Of a DNA stretch of 32,656 nt, positions 8,591 through 22,767 are shown piece after piece. A program made the translations under genes and the position numbers. The notes beneath the pieces were generated by a model. The model was not told where the DNA came from, searched no databases, and was given only the letters and a program-made list of their open reading frames with translations. Source of the stretch: Gammaproteobacteria bacterium (GTDB lineage Bacteria > Pseudomonadota > Gammaproteobacteria > UBA6429 > Thiohalophilaceae). The stretch covers positions 1 through 32,656 of the forward strand of contig JAFLJQ010000233.1 of NCBI GenBank assembly GCA_022712915.1, read 5' to 3'. The first letter of the stretch is position 1; the number at the start of each line of letters is the position of its first letter.

Positions 8591-8644
8591 TTTTAAACGC
8601 AATGTGTAGTTTTATAGTTGAGAGTGAATAATGTAGGGGTTGTA

Positions 8645-8716
8645 AAGACGCAAAGAACGCAGAGAATTTACAATTATTTGTCTTTGCGTCCTCTGCGGCT
8701 TTGTGAACTTTGCGTT
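8645..8716. repeat. CGCAAAG-family inverted repeat between rpe and gph
   Basis: The left arm is GACGCAAAGAACGCAGAG (8648-8665). The right arm (8680-8716) holds CTTTGCGTC, CTCTGCGG and CTTTGTGAACTTTGCG. The two arms are reverse-complementary in short tandem units around a small AT-rich loop. The same unit vocabulary recurs at 1-29, 11041-11068/11451-11478, 12127-12166, 21716-21740 and, as a CACGAAG variant, 14657-14726. All are outside genes. It ends about 20 bp before the preferred gph start and could fold in the rpe-gph mRNA. Confidence 0.75.
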
Positions 8717-8735
8717 GAATTGTGGTAAGGGACAA

Positions 8736-12126: not shown

Positions 12127-12166
12127 AAACGCAAAGGTCGCAAAGACATGAAGAACACAAAGAGAA
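12127..12166. repeat. Single-arm CGCAAAG repeat downstream of trpG
   Basis: AAACGCAAAGGTCGCAAAGA (from 12128) is followed by ATGAAGAACACAAAGAGA. This is the left-arm orientation of the family; I see no right arm nearby. It lies in the 268-bp gap between trpG and the transporter gene. The gap also holds a CCGGGC-TATT-GCCCGG hairpin (12327-12342) without a T run, just upstream of the transporter. Confidence 0.65.
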
Positions 12167-13638: not shown

Positions 13639-14658
13639 ATGGATATGATCTCTGCCATACGGGCTGTAACCGAGCATCAGGATTTGGGTGCTGATGAAAT
13701 GACCTCTGTGATGCGTACCATCATGACTGGCGAAGCAACGCAGGCTCAGATTGGCGGGTTCCTCATCGGTCTGCGCATGAAGGGAGAGAGCATCGACGAG
13801 ATTGCCGCCGCCGCCGGGGTGATGCGTGACCTGGCTGCTGGTGTAAAGGTCAGTGGCGATCATGTGGTCGATATAGTCGGCACTGGTGGGGATGCCACCA
13901 ATACCTTTAATATCTCCACTGCCTGTACCTTTGTGGTGGCGGCGGCGGGCGGTACGGTGGCTAAGCACGGTAATCGCTCGGTATCGAGCAAATCAGGTTC
14001 GGCCGATGTACTCGAGGCTGCCGGGGTGAAACTGGATCTGAGTCCGGAGCAGGTCGCCCGTTGCATCAACGAGATTGGTGTTGGTTTCATGTTCGCCCCC
14101 ATGCATCATAGCGCCATGAAACACGCCATTGGCCCGCGCAAGGAAATGGGGATTAGAACCATTTTTAATATCCTGGGGCCACTGACCAACCCGGCAGGGG
14201 CACCGAATCAGTTACTTGGTGTTTTCAGTGTTGATCTGGTGCAACCCCTGGCTGAGGTGCTCAATAAACTGGGCAGTCATCATGTGCTGGTCGTTAATGC
14301 CGAGGATGGTATGGATGAGATCAGTATCGGTGCCCCAACTCAGGTGGCTGAACTAAAGGGCGGCAAAGTGAGTACTTACCAGATTACGCCAGAGCAGTTT
14401 GGTTTTAAGACCGCCGATATCAGGTCGCTGGCCGTGGACAGTGCCGGGCAGTCATTGGCTGTGGTCAAAGATGTTCTGCAAGGTAAAACTGGCCCTGCGC
14501 GGGACATTGTCGCCCTCAATGCCGGTGCCGCGATTTATGCCGCTGACCTGACCGATACACTACAAGCCGGTATCATCATGGCACAGGACGTCATCGACAG
14601 CGGTGCGGCCATGGCTAAACTGGATGCTCTCGTGGCTTTGTCTAACAGTCTAAATTAA
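13639..14658 (+). CDS. trpD: Anthranilate phosphoribosyltransferase
   Basis: TrpD joins anthranilate to phosphoribosyl pyrophosphate, the second committed step of tryptophan synthesis. With the start at 13639 it is 339 residues, the usual length; AAAGGGTAACGCA precedes this ATG. The longer frame beginning at 13567 overlaps the transporter and is not supported. Motifs include [18 protein letters not shown] (PRPP and anthranilate binding), [19 protein letters not shown], the [12 protein letters not shown] block and the GPLTNPAG loop. trpC follows 79 bp later across a strong CACGAAG inverted repeat. Confidence 0.96.
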
Positions 14659-14726
14659 CCACGAAGATGCGAAGTCACGAAGAATTTAATTTCTTTGTCT
14701 TGCTTCGTGTCTTTGTGCTTTCGTGG
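14657..14726. repeat. CACGAAG-type inverted repeat between trpD and trpC
   Basis: The left arm ACCACGAAGATGCGAAG plus TCACGAAG (14658-14682) pairs imperfectly with the right arm CTTCGTGTCTTTGTGCTTTCGTGGT (14702-14726). This gives roughly 25 bp of complementarity around an AT-rich loop. It begins at the last bases of the trpD stop and ends 12 bp before the trpC start. It is a sequence variant of the CGCAAAG family seen elsewhere in the window. In the trpDC mRNA it should form a large hairpin. Confidence 0.75.
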
Positions 14727-14737
14727 TGAAAAAGCAA

Positions 14738-15535
14738 ATGAGCAATACCCCCGATATCTTGAAAAAAATCCTCGATCGCAAGGCTGAGGAGGTCGCAGAT
14801 CGAAAGGCCAGGGTTTCCCAGGCTGAGCTGCTAGAGCGAACTAAATCTGCTTCGCCGGCACGTGGCTTTGTGGCATCCATTGAAAAGAGTATTGCCGAGG
14901 GCCGGGCAGCGGTGATCGCCGAGATCAAGAAGGCCTCGCCCAGTAAGGGGGTGATGCGGGAGCATTTTGTCCCGGCCGAGATTGCCGAATCTTATGCTCG
15001 GCACGGTGCGAGCTGTCTGTCAGTACTTACTGACATCGATTTTTTTCAGGGTAGTGATGACTATCTGCTACAGGCCCGGGCGGCCTGTTCTTTGCCGGTG
15101 ATTCGCAAAGATTTCATGATTGGCTCCTACCAGGTCTATGAGGCAAGAGCCATGGGGGCCGATTGCATCCTGCTGATTGTTGCGGCTCTAAGTGATAGTC
15201 AACTCAGTGAATTGACCGACCTTGCGAGTCAATTACAACTGGATGTGCTGGTCGAGGTGCATGATGCTGAGGAACTGCAACGGGCCCTACGGTTGGAAAC
15301 GACGTTAGTGGGGATCAATAACCGCAACCTGCGAAGCTTTGAGACATCTTTGAATACCACGCTGAACCTGCTGGATGATATCCCCGATGATCGCATCGTG
15401 GTCACCGAAAGTGGTATCCATACCCGGCCTGATGTGGCCCTGATGCGTGATCATGCGGTGAATGCTTTTCTGGTTGGGGAGGCTTTTATGCGGGAAACCG
15501 ACCCGGGCGAGAAGCTGGCCGAATTGTTTTCCTGA
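14738..15535 (+). CDS. trpC: Indole-3-glycerol phosphate synthase
   Basis: TrpC closes the indole ring, converting the rearranged carboxyphenylamino-deoxyribulose phosphate to indole-3-glycerol phosphate. The monofunctional 265-residue protein carries [13 protein letters not shown] near its start, [14 protein letters not shown] (catalytic Lys and Glu) and [14 protein letters not shown]. Further blocks are [36 protein letters not shown] and [10 protein letters not shown] chose the ATG at 14738. A GTG at 14723 lies in the right arm of the CACGAAG repeat and would add only five residues. The ribosome-binding site is weak. No trpF, trpB or trpA is in the window. Confidence 0.96.
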
Positions 15536-20865: not shown

Positions 20866-21663
20866 ATGCCACGTCTTGATAAAAAACTAAAGCTGCATGG
20901 TTTTAACAATCTGACCAAGACCCTGAGTTTTAATATCTATGATATTAACTATGCTGATACCCCTGCACAGCAAAATGATTATATTGAATATATTGATGAG
21001 GAATATAATGCGGCACGTCTGACGGGCATCCTATCTGAGGTGACGAGTATCATTGGTGCCAATATTCTCAATGTTGCCCATCAGGATTACGATCCGCAGG
21101 GTGCCAGTGTCACCATGCTGATCTCAGAAGAGCCCGTGGCCTCAGAACATATCAGTAATGAAGAGATGCCCGGCCCCTTGCCTGAAACGGTGGTGGCCCA
21201 TCTCGATAAGAGCCATATAACGGTCCACACCTATCCGGAGAGTCATCCTGATACGGGTATCAGTACCTTCCGTGCCGATATTGATGTGTCGACCTGCGGA
21301 CGTATTTCACCGCTACGCGCCCTGAATTTTTTGATACACAGTTTTGATTCGGACATTGTGATCATGGATTATCGGGTGAGGGGATTTACCCGTGATGTGC
21401 GTGGCCGTAAGTATTATATTGACCATGAAATAAATTCTATTCAGAATTTTATTGCTCGAGATACTAAAAATATTTACCAAATGGTCGATGTGAATGTATA
21501 TCAGGAAAATATTTTTCATACCAAAATGATGTTGACGGAATTTGAACTGGATAATTATTTGTTCGGTATGGATGCCACTGATTTGGGGTCTAGTGTGCGC
21601 AAGAAAATTAAAAAACGCCTGAAACAGGAAATGTTAGAAATTTTCTCTGGCAGAAATATTTAG
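20866..21663 (+). CDS. speD: S-adenosylmethionine decarboxylase proenzyme (E. coli type)
   Basis: SpeD decarboxylates S-adenosylmethionine to provide the aminopropyl donor for spermidine. The 265-residue proenzyme matches the long gammaproteobacterial class. It should self-cleave between Lys115 and Ser116 in [16 protein letters not shown], turning Ser116 into the pyruvoyl group. Cys144 ([11 protein letters not shown]) is the expected catalytic Cys. Start [18 protein letters not shown] resembles E. coli SpeD. The conserved crp ... speD ... coq7 neighbourhood is retained. A MITE-like element has inserted two bases after the stop codon. No speE is in the window. Confidence 0.96.
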
Positions 21664-21664
21664 T

Positions 21665-21673
21665 AAATGAGAT
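21665..21673. repeat. Left target-site duplication of the MITE-like element
   Basis: AAATGAGAT is repeated in direct orientation at 21944-21952, immediately outside the two inverted ends. It starts one base after the speD stop codon. Confidence 0.75.
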
Positions 21674-21943
21674 TACTGCTGCCCCGTTAAGTATTTGATC
21701 CATTTTAAAGATCTAAACCGCAAAGGGCACAAAGGATTGCAATGTTGTTTTGTTTTATATTAGAGGGAAATTAGAGGTTATCCGAAGACTTCAAGCTCAT
21801 TTTTTATGAATGACCGAATTTATTTTTTCTTTGCGATAAAATGTGTTTTATAAACAATGTTCATGTTCATGCTTATTCAACCTCCTCAAGCTGTTGTACT
21901 CGGTAGACACATGACTTTTTAGATTATTAACGGGGCAGCAGTG
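21674..21943. mobile_element. Complete 270-bp MITE-like element with 16-bp inverted ends
   Basis: The ends ACTGCTGCCCCGTTAA (21675-21690) and TTAACGGGGCAGCAGT (21927-21942) are perfect inverted repeats of 16 bp. The element is flanked by AAATGAGAT at 21665-21673 and again at 21944-21952, a 9-bp direct repeat as expected for a target-site duplication. Inside are CGCAAAG-type arms at 21716-21740 and 21827-21837. No transposase is encoded, so movement must have been in trans. A homologous right end is at 1-138. The 82-residue minus frame crossing it shares residues with the frame at 79-345 only because both cross this element. Confidence 0.8.
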
Positions 21944-21952
21944 AAATGAGAT
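21944..21952. repeat. Right target-site duplication of the MITE-like element
   Basis: AAATGAGAT, identical to 21665-21673. The 134 bp from here to coq7 contain a GAAAATC-GAA-GATTTTC hairpin (22039-22055) but no gene. Confidence 0.75.
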
Positions 21953-22086
21953 ACAAATAAAAAGGGGCGTATCTTTATTCATTTGATTTCTTGGGGGCGT
22001 TATTCTTCGCAGCTTGCTGTGATTAAGAAGTTTGTAGTGAAAATCGAAGATTTTCGAGCGGCGGGGATGTTTAATTTGTATCTGTT

Positions 22087-22731
22087 TTATACCCAATAAG
22101 TTGTTTTAGTCATGATTTTTGAGGTTAGGCCCATGAATGTTTTGACCGGCCCAGGTAGTTCTGCGCCACCGGCATGCAATGCAACGGTGGCATGGTGAGC
22201 TTCATCTAATTTCATTTGTTCCAGAATGGCGTGGCTCTTTTGATCTTGCTGGTTGATTTGTGCCATGTGGTCGTCCAAATGTCGGACAACCTGATGCTCC
22301 GTTTCTGCCACAAAGCCCAGACTCCATTTGTCACCAGCAATCCCAGCTATTGCACCGATGGTCAGGGAGCCAACATACCAGAAGGGGCTGAGCAGGCTGG
22401 TATGGGTGTTTAGTTCTTTACAGCGCTGCTCACACCAGGCCAGGTGATCGTTTTCTTCAAGGGCAGCCCGCTCCATTTTGCTGCGGACTTCGGGTAGGCG
22501 TGCTGTTAGAGCCTGGCCTTGATAAAGCCCCTGGGCTGAGACCTCACCCGCATGGTTAATGCGCATCAGTCGGCCGGCAAGCTCTTTGTCCATTTCGGGT
22601 AGTTCGATTTCGGCTTTACGGTTAGCCGGGTTCGGACGTTCCGTTAGTGGCGGATTGCCTAACACGGTGCGTAGACCGGCATCAAATTGCTGGATGAGTT
22701 TATCAAAGGGGCTGTATTGTCGATTTTGCAT
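22087..22731 (-). CDS. coq7: Demethoxyubiquinone hydroxylase (Coq7)
   Basis: Coq7 carries out the O2-dependent hydroxylation late in ubiquinone synthesis, at the inner membrane. The ferritin-like di-iron motifs are MRINHAGEVSAQ, EENDHLAWCEQR (ExxH) and DEAHHATVA, and the C-terminus KIMTKTTYWV is typical. I favour the ATG at 22731 (MQNRQYSPFDK, 214 residues), which lines up with homologues. An ATG at 22755 would add eight residues, but it lies only 15-18 bp from the terminator of the upstream barrel gene. Neither start has a strong ribosome-binding site. Its presence implies aerobic respiration with ubiquinone. Confidence 0.93.
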   Translation of the reverse strand: MQNRQYSPFDKLIQQFDAGLRTVLGNPPLTERPNPANRKAEIELPEMDKELAGRLMRINHAGEVSAQGLYQGQALTARLPEVRSKMERAALEENDHLAWCEQRCKELNTHTSLLSPFWYVGSLTIGAIAGIAGDKWSLGFVAETEHQVVRHLDDHMAQINQQDQKSHAILEQMKLDEAHHATVALHAGGAELPGPVKTFMGLTSKIMTKTTYWV

Positions 22732-22767
22732 AAGCAGGGAAGATACAAGATACATCGTTGGGCTTCA

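Follow-up and report, generated by a model that had tools for sequence, protein, structure and literature searches.

A 270-bp MITE behind speD and its probable IS4Sa-like partner in a gammaproteobacterial genome

The window, i.e., the whole stretch of DNA analysed here (32,656 nucleotides), comprises the entire contig C39 of a gammaproteobacterial assembly of 274 contigs and 4,236,486 bases. Within it two host genes converge on a common intergenic gap: speD, encoding adenosylmethionine decarboxylase (20866-21663, + strand; TIGR03331), lies upstream, and the gene for a coq7-type monooxygenase (22087-22755, - strand) lies downstream. An earlier note on this DNA had described in the gap a 270-bp MITE-like element framed by a 9-bp duplication, and we located exactly such an element at 21674-21943 (+ strand), with a copy of the target duplication AAATGAGAT on its left (21665-21673) and another on its right (21944-21952). 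The terminal inverted repeats occupy 21674-21690 (left, + strand, TACTGCTGCCCCGTTAA; family consensus CACTGCTGTCCCGTTAA) and 21927-21943 (right, - strand). The perfect inverted ends of 16 bp given in the note are exact: ACTGCTGCCCCGTTAA occupies 21675-21690, and 21927-21942 is its reverse complement without a mismatch. In the family consensus each end is one base longer (17 bp), and in the window copy the outermost pair is mismatched, the left outermost base being T and not C. At position 9 both ends of this copy also carry C, where the consensus has T, and overall the copy differs from the family consensus by 6.7% (aligned, ungapped columns). The alignment further placed in its interior a CGCAAAG-type inverted tract, a motif found family-wide, with a left arm (ccgcaaagggcacaaag) at 21718-21734 and a shortened right arm (tctttgcga) at 21828-21836 (both + strand). 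No open reading frame of at least 80 aa in the ORF list lies wholly within the 270 bp, in agreement with the note's statement that no transposase is inside. The insertion does lie directly behind speD as the note had it, although the distance is one base, between the stop codon (TAG, 21661-21663) and the duplication, rather than two.

Scanning the window for the end motif (at most 3 mismatches) gave three occurrences against 0.07 expected. The third, at 122-138, is part of a second copy of the family (1-138, + strand), of which only the right part is present since the contig end cuts it. This partial copy is identical over its 138 bp to copies on two other contigs (C22 and C122), and these identical copies probably represent a recently active subfamily that broke the assembly. 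The flanks of the C22 and C122 copies differ from that of the window copy. Tracts of the cgcaaag or cgaag type also occur in or near intergenic gaps at about 8641-8720, 12130-12145 and 14656-14740, and the end-motif scan of the window found no MITE end near them.

The element belongs to a large family in its own genome, where the earlier note had proposed to look for further copies. Counting the window copy itself, a DNA search returned at least 40 strong matches, with E values between 3.6e-148 and 3.7e-55 (40 of 127 candidates were scored), together with 4 weak ones covering the ends only. At up to 3 mismatches, the end motif was found 170 times against 9 for the reversed pattern (some of the 170 being IS ends), and searches with subterminal sequences recovered 53 left and 55 right ends against none in the controls. 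We then built a profile from 28 aligned copies (27 distinct, as two loci represent one copy) and ran it against the window and part of the own-genome stretches that had been fetched. This yielded 93 family matches, whole or partial, of which 49 were full length, with a common interior and lengths of 264-303 bp; the others are fragmentary, a few with weak scores of 25-40 bits, and some that lie next to each other may be pieces of one copy. When lists were compared by eye, 72 of the 90 matches to the CGCAAAG-type tract in this genome fell in or beside profile matches and 18 lay elsewhere. Seven of these 18 (two each on C144, C173 and C230, and C273:122) resemble further MITE copies and lie outside the searched stretches, so the true copy number is probably higher than the profile count.

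To characterise the target site, we compared the two flanks of each full-length copy. At 9 bp, 17 of the 49 pairs were exact (window copy included), 7 had one mismatch and 25 had two or more, while at 7, 8, 10 or 11 bp none of the 49 was exact; among mismatched left-right pairs, used as a control, only 6 of 2352 were exact at 9 bp and 20 had one mismatch. The duplication length is therefore 9 bp. In about half of the copies the duplication has been lost or exchanged, and its decay bore no relation to divergence from the consensus (Spearman 0.20, p 0.18). The target preference is palindromic, with AT.....AT across the 9 bp preceded by T and followed by A. When the 12 full-length copies sitting in a shared target repeat (see below) were left out, the remaining 37 kept this preference (A at the first duplicated base in 33/37, T at the last in 28/37) and 15 of them had exact duplications, which means that the shared repeat is not its sole source. 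These counts also bear on the possibility that the inverted and flanking repeats are a product of chance. Short repeats alone can be, but the excess of end motifs in the window, the 93 family matches, the own-genome search, the 170 against 9 end motifs and the duplication counts refute this explanation here, and we give it practically no weight.

We next asked what the site looks like without the element. Among 90 speD loci scanned, 47 carried both speD and coq7 (window included; some genomes are represented twice), and the two genes are convergent in 46 of them. The element is absent from the three nearest relatives, two of the same genus with gaps between the genes of 49 nt (L163/L172) and 26 nt (L165/L173), and the next one (L164/L175) with a gap of 12 nt; by the same measure the window gap is 429 nt, and gaps in more distant loci range from 17 to over 2,000 nt. 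At the L163 site, which reads AATATT ACTAAATAAGGTATC, a duplication-like sequence, AAATAAGGT, is present once. The empty site that the note had suggested seeking was thus found, and neither of the two observations it had named as telling against a MITE, i.e., a lack of other copies and the presence of the flanking repeats at element-free sites, was made, so its reading of a transposed MITE stands. A further piece of the window gap, 21953-22086, is likewise missing in the three nearest relatives and has one partial copy (89%) at C100:3662-3738; the site has hence undergone more than one change. Separately, the window SpeD is two residues shorter than in the three nearest relatives (3' end 21655-21664), and its stop codon precedes the duplication.

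To find a possible source of transposase, we scanned for the end motif the 30 loci returned out of 31 DDE_Tnp_1 matches in the own genome. One of them, C170:800-2073, is a 1274-bp IS with a DDE_Tnp_1 match and the same ends as the MITE, the kind of element that the earlier note had proposed to look for; its transposase is IS4-type but broken by at least one in-frame stop, and its flanks differ by 2 mismatches in 9 bp. A search of the genome with this IS gave 14 matches. One relative of this IS (C90), at 73% DNA identity, has an open frame of 364 aa that matches the NCBIfam IS4 family, Pfam DDE_Tnp_1 and part of DUF4372 and carries the YREK motif as YKARWDVELLFKWIK; the end-motif scan found no recognisable second IS end there. 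Left IS ends at the edges of four contigs (C26, C180, C20 and C91) are 98.4-100% identical to one another, and right ends on five (C227, C268, C271, C220 and C90, all except C90 at contig edges) are 96.7-100% identical. We infer that these left and right ends belong to one IS, and the occurrence of near-identical ends at eight contig edges suggests recent activity of an element whose middle the assembly failed to resolve. Neither the 30 DDE_Tnp_1 loci nor the 14 matches included a complete, uninterrupted copy. One further candidate for a parent IS with MITE ends, on C108 (L039), was rejected as it is half of a MITE plus a different IS with its own end sequence; at L039 655-2533 a MITE copy is interrupted by this unrelated IS, whose end sequence is repeated.

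Intact IS with these ends were found in related genomes only. One (L276, genome G022) is 1271 bp long and has an open frame of 384 aa with the Y..R...E......K signature YKARWQVELFFKWIK and the spacing D65D102E; its flanks do not match each other, and no solved structure matched its transposase up to E 1. The other (L287, genome G037, from another family of the class) is also 1271 bp long, with a frame of 397 aa and an exact 9-bp duplication, ATTCATTAA. De Palmenaer et al. 2008 (PMC2266710) define the IS4Sa subgroup by ends of the form CA------T, a length of 1150-1750 bp, the YREK motif and direct repeats of 8-10 bp. The partner IS agrees with all four: its ends fit CA------T (CACTGCTGT), its size is 1271-1274 bp, its 9-bp repeat is exact in L287 (with two mismatches in C170 and none recognisable in L276), and YREK and D(60-110)D(100-150)E are both present in L276 and YREK in C90, the broken C170 frame being left out. 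By ends, size, motif and repeats it thus appears to fit the IS4 family, subgroup IS4Sa. The earlier note had argued that a 9-bp duplication limits the transposase families that could mobilise the element, and duplication and ends together do indicate one kind, the IS4-type. The window element itself differs from the IS4Sa elements of that description (PMC2266710) in having no transposase, a length of 270 bp and C instead of T at position 9.

Two plasmid-borne relatives of the IS were compared with it. The annotated transposase of ISAbe18, on an Acinetobacter plasmid, matches the C90 frame (49.5% over 90%), and its ends begin with CACTGCTGTCCC, like those of the partner IS; the inner end bases differ, and the flanking repeat is 10 bp long (ATCATTAGGG). 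The other relative, which is unannotated and aligned in five pieces, comes from an Agarilytica plasmid; its left end is the same over all 17 bp, its right end shows one mismatch, and it has a 9-bp repeat, TATTGCTAT.

We also found that the insertion point of the MITE often lies at a constant position within another repeated element. A flank could be read for 89 elements (88 MITE, 1 IS), and by a loose criterion it matched an arm of this second repeat in 24 of them, against 1 of 139 reversed flanks. After dropping three (C64, C73 and C83) in which the match was not at offset 9, 20 of the 88 MITE elements and the C170 IS remained, all at the same point and in the same register; one of the 20 (C1:5771) is a 54-base fragment that could be an IS end instead. 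Both arms of the repeat are in register for 6 of the 20 and for the IS, and one flank only for the rest. The repeat also occurs unoccupied at 15 places in the same genome (reversed control 0). It is 129-268 bp long, with inverted ends GGGCACTTCTATAAAT, and a 4-bp duplication accompanies 10 of the 13 copies with clear ends (2 of the 15 were dropped as their ends were unclear). Given its own inverted ends and 4-bp duplications, we consider the second repeat to be MITE-like but of another family.

Recurrent insertion of IS into dispersed (REP) repeats is known, for example for ISRm22 and ISPpu9 (PMC1525189). ISRm22 is placed in IS4Sa, a subgroup for which conserved target arms are reported in some members, including ISRm22 itself (PMC2266710). 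Insertion at a dispersed repeat is common to those IS and the elements described here; compared with what is stated of the REP targets (PMC1525189), the target here differs in its length (129-268 bp), in carrying inverted ends of its own along with 4-bp duplications, and in receiving both a MITE and its IS partner. The docking is therefore a new instance of a described behaviour, the twist being that it brings together three elements: a MITE, its IS and a second MITE. The window element is likewise of an ordinary kind, since IS4Sa elements and insertion into dispersed repeats have already been described.

From the anatomy, the copies, the 9-bp duplications, the ends and target point shared with an IS and the element-free site, all of which were observed, we infer that an IS4Sa-like transposase moves the MITE. 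Specifically, we hold with high confidence that the 270-bp element is a MITE most likely inserted in trans by an IS4-family (IS4Sa-like) transposase. The enzyme, supplied by an IS4Sa-like IS, would act on the 17-bp ends of the element and would cut the target with a 9-bp stagger, producing the 9-bp duplication; in this instance the element landed immediately behind the speD stop codon, in the gap between converging genes. Studied IS4 members transpose by cut-and-paste, and the MITE would presumably move in the same way. An alternative explanation is that the element is the decayed remnant of a full IS that lost its transposase gene at the speD site, as its ends and duplication are those of an IS4Sa-like IS. 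However, the 49 full-length copies, with their common interior and narrow length range, require spread as a short element, and a comparison of the element with the IS loci (L031-L074) matched MITE pieces only (L039, L052 and L053), which makes local decay very improbable. MITE and IS share only about 18 terminal bases; the MITE is thus not a simple deletion of the C170 IS, and its interior is of other origin.

Another explanation is that the element has been kept for a function, either as a new end of the speD transcript or as a shield between the convergent transcription of speD and coq7. The widening of the gap to 429 nt from the 12-49 nt of the three nearest relatives would agree with this, though the stretch at 21953-22086 contributes to it, as would our finding that the whole element folds better than shuffled sequences on both strands (z -3.2 and -3.7). 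By contrast, the + strand interior without the ends folds no better than shuffles (z +0.8), meaning that the excess on this strand comes from the terminal repeats, which transposition needs in any case; a scan of 21500-22200 showed nothing resembling a terminator or promoter, and the flanks of family copies elsewhere in the genome are varied. We thus rejected a functional speD terminator or promoter within the element and regard retention for function as unlikely, if less so than local decay of an IS. A new 3' end of the speD mRNA, which the earlier note had suggested, is possible, with no support from the sequence, and the insertion is probably without consequence for the SpeD protein. Under the preferred reading, that of a MITE moved in trans, the element is most likely unimportant for speD itself. 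The fixed point inside the second repeat makes it a little more interesting. One genome holds a MITE family, its likely partner IS and a defined target, with 15 empty and about 20 occupied target repeats, so that one can test directly here how targets are chosen and how MITEs arise from common ends.

To see how widely these ends occur, we searched 58 genomes, own included, and found the 17-bp end (at most 2 mismatches) in 24. From 36 loci we obtained 20 distinct end pairs. Two of these are IS and the other 18 are short elements (61-261 bp); among the 18 the 9-bp duplication was exact in 9, had one mismatch in 3 and had 2 to 7 mismatches in 6. No match of these to the window MITE extended beyond 28 bases at E 1e-4. 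Cross-matching the interiors of the 18 showed that 12 share one other type and 3 a second, two elements (L272 and L290) joining their types only by about 30 to 40 bases. The window MITE was found at E <=0.001 in none of the 57 other genomes (at most 13 candidates scored per genome), its end pattern had no exact match in genome_contigs (a collection that may exclude the own genome), and the best match in plasmids was a single one of 35 bp (E 0.9). We lean slightly towards a broader picture. Within this bacterial family, unrelated interiors would have been joined again and again to one set of IS4Sa-type ends, giving each lineage its own MITE families; in the window species, MITE and IS alike would favour docking inside a second MITE unrelated to the first, with mobile elements thereby stored within mobile elements and genes spared.

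Two further ideas about the family were not retained. The first, that MITE interiors derive from repeats that also occur alone, rested on three interior motifs, which gave 1, 2 and 1 matches in 80 named speD loci (426,350 bases); in no case was an end motif present within 300 bases, five single-base shuffles each gave 0, and the numbers are too few for a claim. The second, end-to-end correction, was suggested by matching changes in both ends of one copy, such as the C at position 9 in the window copy; such changes were seen 5 times in the 49 copies against 3.5 expected, and 26% of shuffles reach 5.

No description of the window MITE family was found among the open-licence matches listed on MITEs with IS4, REP targets and nested MITEs, as far as their titles and the beginnings of their abstracts tell. 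The nearest parallel, compared by description only, is the hupL MITE of Candidatus Thiomargarita nelsonii, also a family of MITEs that occurs on many contigs, there in a sulphur gammaproteobacterium. In its description (PMC4853749), a 10-bp direct repeat shares one base with a 19-bp inverted repeat, and no parent IS was found in that organism. Finally, one of the short elements from the genomes surveyed here, a 129-bp element at L291 129-257, has long identical inverted arms (92 of 129 positions self-complementary), lacks a duplication and resembles an IS end (76% over 101 bp); it may represent a step from IS to MITE.
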